This document shows, piece by piece, positions 461-27,471 of a stretch of 64,000 nt of DNA. Origin of the DNA: Weissella tructae (lineage in GTDB: Bacteria; Bacillota; Bacilli; Lactobacillales; Lactobacillaceae). A program made the translations under genes and the position numbers. Each line of letters begins with the position of its first letter. Within the stretch, counting starts at the first letter, position 1. The DNA lies in assembly GCF_000732905.1 (NCBI RefSeq), contig NZ_CP007588.1, positions 310,001 through 374,000 of the forward strand, read 5' to 3'. Below the pieces are notes generated by a model. That model was given only the letters and a program-made list of their open reading frames with translations, was not told where the DNA came from and made no database searches.

Positions 461-1584
461 ATGTCATTTCATTTATTACCAGGCCACACTATTGGAATCA
501 TTAGTAATGATTTAATGGGACAAAACATGGCCCAAAAAGCACATGCCATGGGATTTAATGTTGTTGGATTCAGTGAATATCCAGATACACCGGTAACGTT
601 TGAAGCTGATGAATCATTTATTGGATATGAACAATTAGCTCTCTTCAAAGAAAAAGCAGATATTATAACGTATACGGCACCATGCTGGCACCTGAATTAA
701 CAGACGAGCTAGAAGGCACTGTCTTGCCACAAGGATTAGATCTTGTATCAATTACAGGGGATCATGCAGTTAGTCGTGCGTTTAATGAAGCGTGTGGCTT
801 GAATATCCTACCGTATCGTATTGCGACATCTCTCGATGAGGTGAGTGAAGCAGCACGTATGTTAGGTTATCCGGTTGTTGTAAAACCAATCTTCAAACAT
901 AAGCATCATGATGAAACAGTTATTCTACATGGTGTTTGGGATTTGGGGATGGTCGCACCACTTGTTGATGGTGGTACAATGCTCGTTGAAAATTGGTTAG
1001 AGCCTGTTCGAGAATTCTCAGTGACAGCGATTCGTAGTGAGACTGGGGATGTTAAAGCATTTCCCATTCGAGAAACACAAAAGCAAGCGCAACATTTGCG
1101 TAAAGCATGGACTGTTGATAACCTTGATCATGATTTAATTGAAGCGTTGCAAGAAGTTGTCATACGAATTAGTACGGCATTGGATTATGTGGGAGCTTTC
1201 TCAGTTAACTTCTTCTTTAGTAGTGAAGAGAATTTATACGTCCGTGATATTTTGCCAGGGATTGAAGCAACTGATGCTGTATATGAAGGGATCACATCAA
1301 TCTCTGTTGTAGAACAGCATCTACGAGCCATTACCGGGCAACCACTACAAGCAGTTAAACAGTATGGCGCTGCAATGTATTTGCCAATTACAGCACGTGA
1401 ACGGACGAGTGTGTTATGGAATTGGGGTATCCAGGACAGTTGGGCCATATCCTTTTATCGTCATGATGACGGTATTAAATTAGGCCATGTTAATGTTTTA
1501 GCGACGAATACGGTAGAACTATTACAAAATATTGATGCGACACAAATCTGGACTAACAATCCAGATACAAAAGTTGAGTCGTAA
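461..1584 (+). pseudogene. Diverged PurK-like ATP-grasp gene broken by a frameshift
   Basis: Two consecutive frames, 461-700 and 682-1584, together spell one PurK-like protein (N5-carboxyaminoimidazole ribonucleotide synthase family, purine synthesis). The first begins LLPGHTIGII as PurK does; the second runs to the PurK-like EQHLRAITGQPL. The frame changes near 680, as if one base had been lost. A strong AGAAAGGAGG ribosome site precedes 461, but none is visible before the ATG at 682. Signature residues are also missing: the usual GGGQLG loop reads SNDLMG, the GGYDGKG loop is replaced, and the NEIAPRPHNSGH block reads RDILPGIEATDAV. It was probably already a non-canonical paralogue before the frameshift. 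A sequencing error could mimic the break. Confidence 0.7.
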
Positions 1585-1604
1585 TAAAAATAACTGACGT
1601 AAAT

Positions 1605-1637
1605 AAAAAGGTCCGCAGAATATCTGCGGACCTTTTT
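1605..1637. terminator. Bidirectional terminator
   Basis: An 11-bp perfect stem (AGGTCCGCAGA / TCTGCGGACCT) with a 3-base loop is flanked by A and T runs. It lies between the PurK-like gene and a convergent small gene, so it can serve both strands. Confidence 0.9.
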
Positions 1638-10659: not shown

Positions 10660-10688
10660 TTGACCATAAACGGTCAGAGTGCTATATT
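10660..10688 (+). promoter_or_regulatory. Promoter of the Trp-leader/ABC importer operon, with inverted repeat
   Basis: TTGACC (10660-10665) and TATATT (10683-10688) are separated by exactly 17 bases, giving a transcript that starts near 10695. The inverted repeat TGACC-N6-GGTCA (10661-10676) covers the -35 box and part of the spacer, so a dimeric regulator could bind there. Confidence 0.7.
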
Positions 10689-10722: not shown

Positions 10723-10767
10723 ATGATGCATTTAACAACACAATTAAATGGTTGGTGGCGCAGCTAG
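10723..10767 (+). CDS. Putative leader peptide with tandem Trp codons (14 aa)
   Basis: A 14-codon open frame, MMHLTTQLNGWWRS, starts 28 bases downstream of the predicted transcription start and ends in TAG. It contains two adjacent TGG codons (10753-10758) near its end. The frame is followed by alternative RNA helices, two terminators and then an importer operon. This is the arrangement expected for ribosome-stalling attenuation sensing charged tRNA-Trp. The ribosome site (GAGTGGAAA) is weak. Translation and stalling are inference. Confidence 0.55.
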   Translation: MMHLTTQLNGWWRS

Positions 10768-10833
10768 CGCATCTGAACTGTATTTTGTACAGATTCGATG
10801 CGCGTTTTCGATGAACGTAAGTATCGATTCTGT
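10767..10833 (+). promoter_or_regulatory. Alternative RNA helices of the Trp leader
   Basis: GCGCATC (10767-10773) pairs with GATGCGC (10797-10803), enclosing further pairs CTG-ACTGTA/TACAG. The 3' strand of this hairpin, ACAGATTCGAT (10789-10799), can instead pair with ATCGATTCTGT (10823-10833), 10 of 11 positions. The two structures exclude each other. The first begins at the leader-peptide stop codon, so ribosome position could choose between them. Confidence 0.5.
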
Positions 10834-10857
10834 GCTGACATGTTTCCGTAAAAACGA

Positions 10858-10890
10858 AAGGTCCGCATGGGAAGCCAGCGGACCTTTTCT
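10858..10890 (+). terminator. First leader terminator
   Basis: AAGGTCCGC and GCGGACCTT form a 9-bp stem with an 11-base loop followed by a T-rich tail, in the untranslated leader of the ABC importer operon. Confidence 0.85.
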
Positions 10891-10894
10891 TTTG

Positions 10895-10935
10895 CCGTAA
10901 GAAAAGCCCCAGGCTTGTCTTACGGTTTTTCTTTT
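10895..10935 (+). terminator. Second leader terminator
   Basis: CCGTAAGA and TCTTACGG form an outer stem with an inner AAGCC/GGCTT stem, followed by TTTTTCTTTT. It lies 34 bases before the first importer gene. CCGTAA also occurs at 10846-10851 and could compete for the same TTACGG strand. Confidence 0.85.
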
Positions 10936-10968: not shown

Positions 10969-11970
10969 ATGAATAATAAAATTAAAGCAACAATCACAGG
11001 ATTAGCGGTTATCTTGTTGGTAGGATTATATACAGAAACAAAGGCAGAAGAAACTGCGACACGTGATGTGGCACATGTCGGTATACTACAGTTCACTGCA
11101 CATCCAGCGTTAGACGCAATTAATAAAGGGATTTTATCTGAACTATCTGATGCAGGATACATTCTCGGTAAAAATCTAGAAGTGACGCAATTGAATGCGC
11201 AAGGTGATCAATCTAATCTCCAAACAATGGCAACTAAGTTAGCGACCCAAAAAAATGACGTAAATGTTGGGATTGCAACACCGGCGGCTGTGCCTTTGGC
11301 TAATAGTATTACTGATAAGCCGGTTGTATTTGCTGCTTCAACGAATCCTGTAGGGGCTAAGTTAGTTAAGTCGATGGAAAAGCCAGGTGCAAATGTGACT
11401 GGGGTATCTGATCAAGCACCTCTACCAGCGCAGTTAAAAATGATTCATGCTTTTGTTCCAGAGTTAAAGACTCTAGGGATTATCTATACATCATCTGATG
11501 ATGCAGCTTCAACAGAAGCCAAGCGAATGGATGCCCTAGCTCAGAAAGCCGGCATTGCGACTAAAATGTATACAATTAGCTCTTCAAATGATCTAAATCA
11601 AACAGCACAACAATTAGTGTCTAATGGGCAGGTAGAAGCAATCTTTGTTCCAACGGATAATACCATCGCGGGAGCATTTTCAACGTTAGTGAAACAAGCA
11701 AATGAGGCACACGTTCCGATCTTTCCAACCGTTGATACGATGGTGGAAAGCGGAGGTGTAGCTGCCGTATCAATCAATCAAACAGAGATTGGTCGTATGA
11801 CAGGGCGTCAAATTGTTAAAATATTAAAGGGGCAAGAACCCAAAGATATGCCCGTCGATTTCATTAAGGACGGACAATTTGTTGTTAATGAAAAACAAAT
11901 GAAACAATTAAACATGAAGATACCTGCAGCGTATTCTGATGCAAAAGCAGTGAAAAGTGAGGCAAACTAA
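10969..11970 (+). CDS. trpX: ABC importer substrate-binding protein, TrpX type
   Basis: This 333-residue periplasmic-binding-like protein belongs to the ABC_sub_bind family (VAHVGILQFTAHPALDAINKGI; later FVPTDNTIAGAF and GGVAAVSINQTEIGRMTGRQ). In streptococci and lactobacilli members are annotated TrpX, a predicted tryptophan transporter component. The tandem-Trp leader upstream supports tryptophan as substrate, but this is inferred. The N-terminus is a signal sequence or anchor (hydrophobic residues 9-20) with no lipobox Cys, unlike most Gram-positive binding proteins. Its stop overlaps the permease start. Confidence 0.75.
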   Translation: MNNKIKATITGLAVILLVGLYTETKAEETATRDVAHVGILQFTAHPALDAINKGILSELSDAGYILGKNLEVTQLNAQGDQSNLQTMATKLATQKNDVNVGIATPAAVPLANSITDKPVVFAASTNPVGAKLVKSMEKPGANVTGVSDQAPLPAQLKMIHAFVPELKTLGIIYTSSDDAASTEAKRMDALAQKAGIATKMYTISSSNDLNQTAQQLVSNGQVEAIFVPTDNTIAGAFSTLVKQANEAHVPIFPTVDTMVESGGVAAVSINQTEIGRMTGRQIVKILKGQEPKDMPVDFIKDGQFVVNEKQMKQLNMKIPAAYSDAKAVKSEAN

Positions 11971-12854
11971 TGGCAATGTTAATATCAGCAATTGGACAAG
12001 GGTTAATCTGGGCAGCCGTAGGAATCGGATTGTTTTTAACATTTCGAATTCTTAACTTTCCAGATATGACAGTTGAAGGGACATTCCCACTAGGAGCCGC
12101 GACAGCGGTTGTGTTGATTTCTGGAGGTATGAACCCATATCTAGCAACATTATGCGCGATGGGCGCTGGGGCGTTGGCAGGAATGGTGACAGGGTTACTC
12201 TATACGAAAGGCCAAGTCCCTATTTTATTGGCAGGTATTCTAACGATGACCGCTGCATATTCAATCAATCTACGTATTTTAGGTCAAGCAAACCGTTCGT
12301 TGTTACAAATGCCGACGGTATTCTCTAATGACTTACTACAAAAGTTACCTAATAATTATCCCGTCGTTATCGTCGGGTTAATCGTTGTGATTATCGTTAT
12401 CACATTAGTTAGTTTGTTTTTAAAAACACAATTAGGGCAAGCGTTTGTGGCAACTGGTGATAATGCAACAATGGCTCGTTCAATGGGAATTAGTACTGAC
12501 ACAATGACTATTTTAGGCTTGATGATTGCGAATGGATTTATTGGTCTTGGTGGTGCATTAGTCGCGCAAAATAATGGTTTTGCCGATGTAAATATGGGAA
12601 TGGGAATTATTGTTGTGGGACTTGCCTCAATTATTATCGGAGAAGTGTTGTTTTCTGGTAACTTAACATTGATGGAACGTTTGATTACTGTAGCAATTGG
12701 ATCAATTCTATATCGATTTGTCTTAGTACTTGTCTTATACATTGGATTTAACGCAGACGACCTTAAATTAGTGAGTGCTATCATTTTGGGATTGGCATTA
12801 ATGATTCCAAAATTAGGTAAGCGTCTAAATATTAAGTGGCGAAAGGAGGCTTAA
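11970..12854 (+). CDS. trpY: ABC importer permease, TrpY type
   Basis: This 294-residue membrane protein has about eight to nine hydrophobic helices and resembles the branched-chain-permease-like (BPD_transp_2) branch. Landmarks are RILNFPDMTVEGTFPLGAA at the N-terminus and the cytoplasmic segment TGDNATMARSMGIS, which contacts the ATPase. The start ATG shares a base with the preceding TAA, so translation is coupled. It would form the channel for the substrate delivered by the upstream binding protein. Confidence 0.75.
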   Translation: MAMLISAIGQGLIWAAVGIGLFLTFRILNFPDMTVEGTFPLGAATAVVLISGGMNPYLATLCAMGAGALAGMVTGLLYTKGQVPILLAGILTMTAAYSINLRILGQANRSLLQMPTVFSNDLLQKLPNNYPVVIVGLIVVIIVITLVSLFLKTQLGQAFVATGDNATMARSMGISTDTMTILGLMIANGFIGLGGALVAQNNGFADVNMGMGIIVVGLASIIIGEVLFSGNLTLMERLITVAIGSILYRFVLVLVLYIGFNADDLKLVSAIILGLALMIPKLGKRLNIKWRKEA

Positions 12855-12855
12855 C

Positions 12856-13626
12856 ATGGCCGAAATGAGTTTAGAATTAATCGATGCAACGGTAACAGTT
12901 AATCAAGGAACGCCTGAAGAGCGGAACATTTTAAATCATGTGAATCTACAAATTCGTCAAGGTGAATTTGTTACCGTGTTAGGCTCAAATGGAGCTGGAA
13001 AATCAACTTTATTGAATGTTATTGCAGGAAATTTAAAGCTAACAAGTGGAGAAATCTGGTTGGGTGGTCAAAATGTGACACACTTAAATGATTTACAACG
13101 AACGAAGACACTAGCCCGTGTGTTTCAAGATCCTAAATTAGGGACTGCCCCTCGAATGACTGTCGCTGAGAATTTACTGTTATCTCAAAAGCGTGGTCAA
13201 CGTCGCTCATTGCGTAACCGTGGACTAACAGCGCAAAAGAAAATGGAACTTGCTGAAATTGCACAAACTATGGGGAATGGATTAAGTGAACGACTTGATG
13301 TACCAACAGGTAATTTATCAGGTGGTCAACGTCAAGCATTGTCATTCTTAATGGCGACACAAGTGCGACCAGATGTGCTACTTTTAGATGAACATACGGC
13401 AGCGTTAGATCCGAAGACAAGTCAACAACTGATGACATTAACAAACGATAAAATTCGTGAAGCTGATTTAACGGCCATGATGATTACTCACGACTTAAAT
13501 GATGCATTAGTTTATGGTGATCGTTTATTGGTCATTGAGAATGGTGGTATTGGGAAAGACTTTGATAGCAATGCTAAATCTGATTTATCAGTATCAGACT
13601 TATTGACGTATTTTAATAAATATTAA
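12856..13626 (+). CDS. trpZ: ABC importer ATP-binding protein, TrpZ type
   Basis: This is a 256-residue ATPase. Walker A is GSNGAGKST (43-51), the ABC signature LSGGQRQ (154-160), Walker B VLLLDEH (174-180) and the H-loop ITHD. The D-loop region reads DEHTAALD rather than the common DEPTSGLD, as in the family paired with TrpX/TrpY-like proteins. It begins one base after the permease stop with GGAGG upstream, completing a three-gene importer operon. Confidence 0.8.
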   Translation: MAEMSLELIDATVTVNQGTPEERNILNHVNLQIRQGEFVTVLGSNGAGKSTLLNVIAGNLKLTSGEIWLGGQNVTHLNDLQRTKTLARVFQDPKLGTAPRMTVAENLLLSQKRGQRRSLRNRGLTAQKKMELAEIAQTMGNGLSERLDVPTGNLSGGQRQALSFLMATQVRPDVLLLDEHTAALDPKTSQQLMTLTNDKIREADLTAMMITHDLNDALVYGDRLLVIENGGIGKDFDSNAKSDLSVSDLLTYFNKY

Positions 13627-13658
13627 GCTGTACTGTGTGATACAGGGAAGGTGTGAAC

Positions 13659-14033
13659 ATGAAACGACAGATTTTAGTACAAATTTTAGCGGTATTTGTC
13701 GGGGGACTAATCGGGGGTGCAGTTCGAGAAACCTTAATGTTAACGATTAAAATGGGACAATTTCCATTAAATACAGTCGTTGTTAATTTAACAGGTGTCT
13801 TTTTAGCTGTATTAGTGACAACCAAATTGTGCCAATCATGGCATAAAATTGCCTATGTTCACGAATTTTTAGATGTCGGAATCTTAGGGGCGTACACAAC
13901 ATATGGTACGGTGATTTTAGACTTAGCAACTAAAACGAGTTTTGTGATGGGAATGATTTATTTGACGACTACGATAGTCGGGAGTGTATTCATGATTTAT
14001 CTAGCGCGTTATGTCGGTAGGAGGTGGTCATAA
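13659..14033 (+). CDS. crcB: CrcB/Fluc fluoride channel subunit 1
   Basis: About 124 residues with four helices, including GGLIGGAVRETL, the NLTGVFLA segment (normally N.xG.F) and GAYTTYGT (normally GGxTTFST). These are Fluc landmarks. Fluc exports fluoride as an antiparallel dimer; Gram-positive bacteria often use heterodimers of two adjacent genes, as here. I choose the ATG at 13659, 7 bases after GGAAGG. It overlaps the next gene by one base. No fluoride riboswitch is visible upstream; it follows the importer operon by 32 bases and may be co-transcribed. Confidence 0.85.
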   Translation: MKRQILVQILAVFVGGLIGGAVRETLMLTIKMGQFPLNTVVVNLTGVFLAVLVTTKLCQSWHKIAYVHEFLDVGILGAYTTYGTVILDLATKTSFVMGMIYLTTTIVGSVFMIYLARYVGRRWS

Positions 14034-14389
14034 TGGCTATGATTATGATGGCAAGCTTTGGCGCAGCGATTGGATCAATTGTACGATTTATTGTCCAAAC
14101 GCGTTTCAAATTAAATGCAGAAATAACCGTCTTAGGTATTAATTGGGTTGCTGCGTTCCTGGCGGGGATGATTTATGCATCTGAATTAGCACCGATGCTA
14201 CACACGTTAGTAATGGCAGGATTTGTGGGTGGATTTTCAACCTTTTCGGCACCGATTATCACGTTAGTTGATGGGCTAGAAAAGCATGTATTACGCTGGA
14301 AAGCAGTGATTAACATTATGGTGTTGTTTATAGGCGGCCTAGTGATTTTCTGGTTCGGCTATAACATTGTGCAATTACTTGGTATGTAG
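14033..14389 (+). CDS. crcB: CrcB/Fluc fluoride channel subunit 2
   Basis: About 118 residues, four helices, with GAAIGSIVRF at the N-terminus, GINWVAAFLAG and GFVGGFSTFSA, the conserved Fluc phenylalanine/threonine region. The ATG at 14033 overlaps the TAA of the first crcB and has AGGAGG upstream; an in-frame GTG at 14024 would sit on the ribosome site itself. The two unequal subunits probably form a heterodimeric fluoride channel in the membrane. Confidence 0.88.
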   Translation: MAMIMMASFGAAIGSIVRFIVQTRFKLNAEITVLGINWVAAFLAGMIYASELAPMLHTLVMAGFVGGFSTFSAPIITLVDGLEKHVLRWKAVINIMVLFIGGLVIFWFGYNIVQLLGM

Positions 14390-18898: not shown

Positions 18899-18909
18899 TT
18901 CAAATTAAA

Positions 18910-19163
18910 GATATGAACGAACGAGTACCTTACATTTTGTTGCAAAGAGAGTCACGCTGAAGTTGAGAAGTGATCAACAGATTAAGGGAACCACATTCGT
19001 GATAATTGACATATTAAACGTATGTTCGGGTCGCTCCGTTACAAGCTTTACCTTGGATACAAGGTAAATGAGTGTTAGGCAGTAATGTCTAACAAAATTG
19101 AGGTGGAATCACGAATTTTATCGTCCTCAAGTCATCCCATGGGGTGGCTTGGGGACTTTTTTT
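18910..19163 (+). promoter_or_regulatory. T-box riboswitch leader of an amino-acid ABC importer
   Basis: The leader contains an AGAGAG element (18946-18951), an upper stem TCACG/CGTGA (18952-18956 with 18998-19002), and an antiterminator core at 19100-19128, where GAGG-TGGAATC-ACGA pairs with TCGT-CCTC. The terminator at 19123-19163 competes with it. The tRNA-binding bulge is TGGA, which would pair with a U discriminator base. The specifier codon is not certain: GAC and ACA in the TTGACAT stretch after the upper stem are candidates. Confidence 0.85.
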
Positions 19164-27234: not shown

Positions 27235-27251
27235 CGGTTATGTAAATAAAA

Positions 27252-27471
27252 TGAATAGAGGTTGCAGTCAACAAGAGTAATCAATCAAACCGGCAGGTAA
27301 AGCGATTGATGAAAGGGAAGATTGCCGAAATAACAACATGGCAATGTTGGTTGTTGGTCCAGACATTAACAGTGGTTGGATTGTCGCAAGGAATTGCGGA
27401 GCGCTATCAATGATATTCTATAGGACTAAACCCCTTAGTTTATGCGCTTTTGTATAAACTAAGGGTTTTTT
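27252..27471 (+). promoter_or_regulatory. Lysine riboswitch (L box) with terminator
   Basis: The conserved L-box landmarks occur in order: AGAGGTTGCA (27257 onward), AAGAGTA, GATGAAAGGG with TTGCCGAAAT, GTCCAGACATTAACAG, and GGAGCGCTATC near 27398-27408. A long terminator follows (AACCCC-TTAGTTTAT with its complement, 27429-27471). Lysine binding should favour the terminator and shut off lysP. The match to the Bacillus lysC leader pattern is by memory of the family, not by a search. Confidence 0.93.

Follow-up and report, generated by a model that had tools for sequence, protein, structure and literature searches.

Does a short reading frame with two adjacent tryptophan codons, lying between nrdF and the importer operon trpXYZ, control that operon, and by what means? 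The frame has 14 codons, MMHLTTQLNGWWRS (10723-10767, forward strand; ATG ATG CAT TTA ACA ACA CAA TTA AAT GGT TGG TGG CGC AGC TAG), and is present where a first-pass annotation had placed it in the window, i.e. the whole 64,000-nucleotide stretch of Weissella tructae DNA analysed here. From sequence comparison we conclude that the leader is very probably a ribosome-mediated transcription attenuator of trpXYZ, and one branch of a Lactobacillales family.

Leader and operon

The features are collected in Table 1. The importer had been said to have a TrpX-type binding protein, which agrees with a score of 422.7 bits against the cut-off of 390 of the NCBIfam tryptophan-binding equivalog (NF041285). 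Two Trp in so short a frame had been regarded as notable in itself; this did not hold, as 8 of the 810 ATG frames of 8-30 amino acids in the window carry WW, mononucleotide shuffles averaging 2.5 of 947. WW alone is unremarkable, and conservation is what raises this frame above chance. The promoter had been called strong. A consensus-like site is indeed there, and it is weak evidence because the scan yields 1.8 such sites by chance in this stretch.

Folding gave the two terminators that had been claimed, hairpins each with a T-run at about 10858-10893 and at 10894-10935, and none of 200 shuffles of the segment 10693-10945 folds as well as the segment itself (z -5.2). A simple terminator scan, which admits loops of 3-8 bases only, has neither leader hairpin among its results; its sole match is on the opposite strand, inside trpX. 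A second leader copy in the same genome was considered and rejected: the other match of R1, a covariance model made from the genus leaders, is a similar terminator (window 1486-1637), and the pattern GGTTGGTGGCG has a single occurrence in the genome.

Table 1. Positions of the leader elements and of the operon in the window
Feature	Position	Strand	Evidence
Promoter-like site, -35 TTGACC / -10 TATATT, spacer 17	10660-10688	+	consensus match only
Ribosome-binding region and leader start codon; 5' arm of the long-range SD:A' helix	10709-10728	+	swap test 0/2000, 24 leaders
Strand A, codons G10-W11-W12-R13	10750-10761	+	pairs with B; no two-sided changes, weakest helix
Tandem TGG stall codons	10753-10758	+	in 27 genus leaders (listing criterion included WWR); C:D lowest with ribosome here
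Strand B, begins in the stop codon; under the ribosome at stop	10767-10782	+	B:C swap 0/2000; 7/14 pairs two-sided
Strand C, partner B or D	10788-10803	+	swap tests, two-sided changes
Strand D, partner C (OFF) or E (ON)	10821-10835	+	C:D 9/13 pairs two-sided; D:E 2/7, swap 24/2000
A' segment, partner the leader ribosome-binding region, or A'' inside the antiterminator	10840-10847	+	swap tests, ON-set pairing
A'' segment	10854-10861	+	A':A'' swap test 0/2000
Strand E, 5' arm of terminator 1	10860-10870	+	swap tests, pairing counts, folds
Strand F, 3' arm of terminator 1 with T-run	10875-10893	+	E:F 9/12 pairs two-sided
Terminator 2; 5' arm AAGAAAAG, possible partner of the terminator 1 T-run	10894-10935	+	swap 4/5000, 14 leaders
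trpX, tryptophan ABC transporter binding protein	10969-11970	+	NF041285 422.7 bits
trpY, permease	11970-12854	+	PF02653
trpZ, ATPase	12856-13626	+	PF00005

Conservation within the genus

The leader DNA matches 22 of the 28 genus genomes (own included) and 0 of 32 outside the genus. TrpX was found in all 28, and upstream of trpX in 27 of them lies a 14-codon frame ending in NxWWRx and stop; the alignment of related leaders that the first-pass annotation had proposed as a check therefore keeps both the frame and the WW codons. When every short frame containing two Trp was accepted, 26 genomes were recovered, the 27th sitting in a broken assembly, and the listing of all 27 leaders used a criterion that demanded WWR and 14 codons. 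Several of these leaders also have longer in-frame starts. Codons 2-6 are variable, and N9, W11, W12 and R13 are invariant. The covariance model of the leader, built from these same sequences, finds 27 of the 28 genomes. The exception is G019 (L044), a natural deletion in which trpX has a terminator only and no leader. Leaders that keep the helices and lose the frame or the Trp codons had been named as what would refute the proposal; they were looked for, and this sole exception keeps just the terminator.

A second TrpX paralogue of about 44% identity, with a leader-like frame of its own (MQKSINNNLNMAWQSRHTRS), was seen at L053 and L054, in G025 and G013.

Alternating helices

The structure set of the genus consists of 24 distinct leaders (alignment A1); L012, from the broken assembly G004, was left out, and L031 and L033 are duplicates. 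In the swap test the pairing of the arms of one species was compared with that of arms taken from other species, over permutations and with ancestry ignored. The competing helices claimed earlier are borne out: consecutive pairs of the strands A-B-C-D-E-F fit their own species better, with A:B and D:E being the weakest. Over the 24 leaders, the energies of own and swapped arms were -10.9 and -7.0 kcal/mol for SD:A', -11.8 and -10.9 for A:B, -14.9 and -11.2 for B:C, -18.6 and -15.4 for C:D, -4.2 and -3.1 for A':A'', and -18.0 and -10.6 for E:F (0/2000 in each case), and -8.8 and -8.0 kcal/mol for D:E (24/2000). Five non-neighbour control pairs gave 264-1769/2000 in the same leaders.

The helices were also examined as two sets. 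In the OFF set (SD:A', A:B, C:D and E:F) 85.8% of cells are paired, compared with at most 43.9% when the strands are slid, and there are 77 two-sided changes compared with a shuffle mean of 32. For the ON set (B:C, D:E and A':A'') the corresponding values are 83.5% and at most 51.5%, with 35 two-sided changes and 14 in shuffles. No two-sided change occurs in A:B among the genus leaders; this is expected where one arm consists of codons, and it makes A:B the least supported helix. Outside the Phe/Tyr set, swap-test support for D:E is weak (24/2000 in the genus and 52/2000 in the RF04312 set). Since the terminator E:F is more stable than D:E, the choice between them must be kinetic, made during transcription.

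The T-run of terminator 1 and the purine-rich 5' arm of terminator 2 may form a relay: with E engaged by D, terminator 1 would have its 3' side free to disable terminator 2. This is suggestive only, because U-rich and A-rich stretches pair easily.

Ribosome position and the proposed switch

In a crude switch-point model, the RNA ahead of the leading edge of the ribosome was folded, up to strand E. For the window leader, P(C:D) is 0.00 when the A site holds W11 and 0.46 when it holds W12, and reaches 0.90, 0.92 and 0.86 at codon 13, codon 14 and the stop codon; with W11 in the A site, the best fold is B:C together with the D:E antiterminator and its inner pairs. Mean values over the 24 leaders for codons 9-14 and the stop are 0.59, 0.49, 0.45, 0.59, 0.83, 0.92 and 0.92, so that the minimum falls at the first Trp codon, W11. 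P(C:D) is lower at W11 than at the stop in 22 of the 24 leaders, the reverse being found in none; when W12 is taken as the stall the counts are 18 and 1. Almost no switching is predicted by this model for L047, L048, L049 and L051. A mutually exclusive antiterminator and terminator chosen by the position of the ribosome are thus found in silico. The claim that ribosomes stall on the Trp codons is supported, at the level of sequence, by the conserved frame and WW, the helices and this switch point.

From these results we infer translation of the frame, stalling, termination and a response to amino acids, which might proceed as follows. When charged tRNA-Trp is scarce, the ribosome would wait on the TGG codons and leave strand B, which starts in the stop codon, free to form B:C. 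D would then be free to pair with E, aided by A':A'', and the D:E antiterminator would block the terminator E:F, with expression of the importer. When tryptophan is sufficient, a ribosome at the stop would cover B, C:D and E:F would form, and transcription would end. If no ribosome is present, long-range pairing between the uORF and the segment that follows D would remove part of the antiterminator, giving a default OFF state; the arms of this helix would be the ribosome-binding region and A' in the genus, and the stall codons and the D-tail in other genera.

The attenuator could then act as an AND gate that needs both a ribosome on the uORF and a stall. A queued second ribosome ("two-ribosome attenuator") is part of this idea, which we regard as rather doubtful: an initiating ribosome waiting behind the stalled one would prevent the ribosome-binding region from entering SD:A' and so hold the antiterminator open. 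In the 14-codon frames of the 27 genus leaders, W11 in the A site puts the P site 27 bases from the start codon, and 27 bases are about one ribosome length.

Relation to the orphan motif RF04312

The trpB motif RF04312 (SRC-39-1), with over 900 members, entered the literature as a strong riboswitch candidate; what it most often precedes is an amino-acid ABC transporter that is uncharacterised, and its authors were unable to rule out a classic attenuator (PMC11109978). The window leader gives a weak full-length match to it, 25.9 bits, which is below the cut-off of 59, and in a scan of 20 genus loci L310 alone matched at E≤1 (33.8 bits). At E≤0.001, RF04312 has matches in 159 of the 295 Lactobacillales genomes, 52 of them over the cut-off; a phylum sample gave matches in 4 of 398 genomes, one of these in Lactobacillales.

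We fetched 113 RF04312 places, 33 from searches and 80 as a subset of the match table. Before counting, four matches were dropped by eye as chance: L099, L100, L153 (a TetR-like gene follows) and L180 (secA-like). The best 30 places within the order all have a Trp-containing ATG frame that ends just before the motif, for example ...SWQNWRR (peptide ends are written here up to the stop codon). One uORF per locus was picked by ribosome-binding strength and start codon only, blind to content. All 109 loci offered a uORF to choose, but so did 411 of 545 shuffles, so content and not presence is the evidence: Trp lies in the last 8 residues of the chosen uORF in 99 of the 109 loci, compared with 39 of the 411 shuffle frames. 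Of the remaining 10, four have Trp slightly earlier, one is near a contig end and five have Phe/Tyr.

The swap test was applied to 107 of these loci, with L143 (near the contig end) and L139 left out and strand A being the first codons of the uORF. B:C, C:D, E:F and A:B all gave 0/2000, and D:E 52/2000. The non-neighbour control B:D gave 0/2000 as well, and stall codons:C gave 13/5000 in the Phe/Tyr set described below, so a low count alone is no proof of a helix. After a geometry filter had removed two more loci, P(C:D) was lower at the last stall codon than at the stop in 95 of 105 and higher in 3.

From the other direction, at E≤0.01 R1 matches 28 of 101 family genomes; four belong to the genus, and many of the other matches are weak. 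The loci fetched outside the genus all lie before TrpX (8 of 8), with leaders ending in WQSR (5), WQSW (1) or WWRR (2), and R1 and RF04312 match overlapping places in G029, G060 and G061. Because of these matches in other genera and this overlap, we take the resemblance as one by descent even though the window leader is below the Rfam cut-off; judged by sequence, it is a divergent relative of RF04312. The two share P1 (C:D), the terminator (E:F) and an antiterminator in the right shoulder of P1, and an amino-acid ABC transporter or trpB lies downstream in both RF04312 and this family; five Trp-side loci precede a TrpB, one tested and four judged by eye. RF04312 differs in having been published as a riboswitch candidate, and the uORF of the fetched loci ends before the stretch that is modelled.

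At locus L068 a group II intron-type reverse transcriptase, judged by eye, follows a Trp-type leader, and TrpX was not found in the stretch. One RF04312 match, L098 (G680), is outside the order and has a Phe-rich frame, ...FFNNHFR, before a sodium-dependent transporter; the design may thus extend beyond Lactobacillales.

Phe/Tyr branch

A sister form carries Phe/Tyr codons (QLNxYYFSYFR) and lies before a TrpX paralogue, shikimate dehydrogenase or DAHP synthase. All 30 fetched paralogue genes (L181-L210, the best per genome, query included) have a leader like QLNNYYFSYFR. The Phe/Tyr scan found 26 of these leaders, the other four having weaker ribosome-binding sites below the SD threshold. The codon block varies, for example ...QLNTFNFSYFRRCL in Isobaculum melis, ...TNTYYYFSFFR in Streptococcus agalactiae ATCC 13813, Phe only in Companilactobacillus nantensis (L250, ...QFAFSFFFR) and Tyr only in Lacticaseibacillus brantae (...AYYYGYYG).

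R2, a model of 35 Phe/Tyr leaders, has matches at E≤1e-4 in 190 of the 295 Lactobacillales genomes, and the weaker matches may be Trp-type loci. We fetched 20 places, mostly chosen away from the paralogue genes, and all 20 have a Phe/Tyr frame, which is partly by construction since R2 includes the codon block. Judged by gene starts, 15 precede shikimate dehydrogenase, 2 DAHP synthase and 2 TrpX-like genes, and 1 has no gene in the stretch. NCBIfam was run on five of the shikimate dehydrogenases, which all score best there with four over the curated cut-off, and also on one DAHP synthase and both TrpX-like genes. L168, from the RF04312 set, precedes aroE as well.

The five paralogues with Phe/Tyr leaders that were tested scored 304-336 bits, below the TrpX cut-off of 390. 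In a first tree, all 120 proteins with Trp leaders are apart from three with Phe/Tyr leaders (one clade, support 100). A second tree comprised 166 proteins, the Trp set having been reduced by rule to 56; here the 56 Trp-leader and 57 Phe/Tyr-leader proteins are on opposite sides of one branch (support 100). The Phe/Tyr side also holds 9 proteins with a T-box core, labelled by a core-sequence pattern and not by covariance model, and 44 for which no leader was found, 22 of which fall in the Phe/Tyr clade; the no-leader labels are no proof of absence, because the scan missed 4 of 30. By comparison, the codons follow the downstream gene, Trp for TrpX/TrpB and Phe/Tyr for the paralogue, AroE and DAHP synthase, with the substrate of the paralogue as a prediction.

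Swap tests on the 35 Phe/Tyr leaders gave 0/5000 for each of B:C, C:D, E:F and the pairing of E with D plus its tail. The stall codons also pair with the bases right after D (-11.2 own and -9.7 swapped, 0/5000). Four control pairs gave 1371-2964/5000, and stall codons:C gave the value cited above. RNAalifold itself picks the helix of the stall codons with the D-tail, which survives the changes TTTAGC:GCTAAA, TACGGC:GTCGTA and GCCGGC:GCCGGC. While the ribosome is early in the stall block, P(C:D) is 0.14; it climbs to 0.87 when the ribosome is next to the stop, and drops again once the ribosome edge would cover C. We read the extra helix as the OFF state without a ribosome. In Trp-type loci a broad swap test of this helix was negative (805/2000). 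At the codon level, AGC occurs with GGC in 19 rows and with GGT in 2, and AAC with GGC in 4 and with GGT in 16 (Fisher 5.8e-6); the rows were hand-sorted, the test was chosen post hoc with the sequences in view, after the failed swap test, and ancestry was ignored; 2 AGC and 8 AAC rows with tails in neither class were left out, and one of the 19 has AGCT and not GGC.

Alternative explanations

Chance WW frames do occur, as the 8 in the window illustrate, and the locus might hold mere terminators after nrdF together with such a frame. This is exceedingly improbable, as the frame, the helices and the alternation of partners persist throughout the genus, also at six loci (L046-L051) with no nrdF in the fetched flank. 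T-box or TRAP control is the usual one for Trp genes in Firmicutes; trpX of S. suis has a T-box (PMC9382623), and the own genome has 12 T-box matches, 2 of them over the cut-off. At the trpX locus, however, the covariance model (RF00230) gave no match at either threshold. A TRAP-regulated leader has about eleven G/UAG repeats, and by eye no run of such triplets is present. The first-pass annotation had dismissed both, and we likewise regard their probability as practically negligible.

A metabolite-binding riboswitch with an incidental short frame is the reading under which RF04312 entered the literature as a strong candidate. We find it highly improbable here, for the uORF is conserved and ends just before the motif, its codons track the downstream gene (Trp or Phe/Tyr), the switch point is at the stall codons, and the original authors themselves left room for a classic attenuator (PMC11109978). 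A TnaC-like arrest peptide, in which nascent QLN..WWR senses free tryptophan on the ribosome, would suit the recurrence of QLN before the stall block and of R after it ([QKH]LN in 85 of 165 leaders outside the genus). It is nevertheless quite improbable: the Asn of QLN is AAT in 83 of the 85, compared with 248 AAT and 147 AAC over all leader Asn codons, which points to a constraint on the RNA; the conserved Ser/Asn codons of the stall block pair with the D-tail; and a plentiful amino acid calls for importers and biosynthesis genes to be switched off, not on. Attenuation by a translating ribosome remains our preferred reading, and the frame, codons, helices and match of codons to gene on which it draws are apparent from comparison.

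Comparison with known attenuators

The enteric his attenuator has an alternating-strand topology with six strands. This leader resembles the enteric his and trp attenuators in having the regulatory codons near the end of a short frame and in the selection, by stall or stop, between alternating helices. It differs in sequence, host group and genes, in the extra helix between uORF and antiterminator and the possible tandem-terminator relay, and its family differs in that the codon set changes within it. Identity with Trp_leader (RF00513) was rejected, at 22.3 bits compared with a cut-off of 41. In Firmicutes, leader-peptide attenuators are known for hisS/his (PMC2965389, PMC9413887) and for ilv-leu of S. 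aureus (PMC5794164); in the portions of these papers available, they share ribosome-mediated attenuation in Firmicutes with this leader but concern His or Leu/Ile codons and other genes and taxa, aromatic amino acids not being described. The T-box of S. suis trpXYZ serves the same operon and the same signal, charging of tRNA-Trp, but its RNA reads the tRNA directly without a leader peptide (PMC9382623). Searches of open-access PMC literature, covering result listings and passages of papers, turned up no description of a Trp or Phe/Tyr leader peptide ahead of these genes in Lactobacillales, and the trpB motif is named in one paper there.

The family would accordingly have a Trp branch (trpXYZ and trpB, including RF04312) and a Phe/Tyr branch (TrpX paralogue, aroE and DAHP synthase). 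Leader-peptide attenuation is known in kind; what is new, on the comparative evidence, is the place, breadth and detail, namely a codon-swapped aromatic family in Lactobacillales, which would explain the published riboswitch candidate. Compared with the first-pass annotation, the element would further comprise five alternating helices and a long-range helix to the uORF, and would belong with an orphan Rfam motif and with Phe/Tyr codons elsewhere. RF04312 would thereby gain a function, and for a large group of TrpX-like binding proteins the leader codons would predict Phe/Tyr, not Trp, as the substrate. The results further suggest that, in Lactobacillales, codon-specified leader peptides take the place of the expected T-boxes in running much of the uptake and synthesis of aromatic amino acids. 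Codon swapping in one RNA family would also allow a direct test of how the specificity of an attenuator changes, comparable to the specifier codon of the T-box.

Other elements in the neighbourhood

Two adjoining CrcB-type (fluoride channel) genes directly follow trpXYZ (window 13653-14389). Farther on, the window has a T-box at 18904-19131 (94.2 bits), whose downstream gene resembles by eye an amino-acid ABC permease, and a Lysine riboswitch at 27248-27414 (91.7 bits). THF riboswitches were seen near trpX in 5 of the 20 genus loci scanned (L304, L307 and L310-L312).
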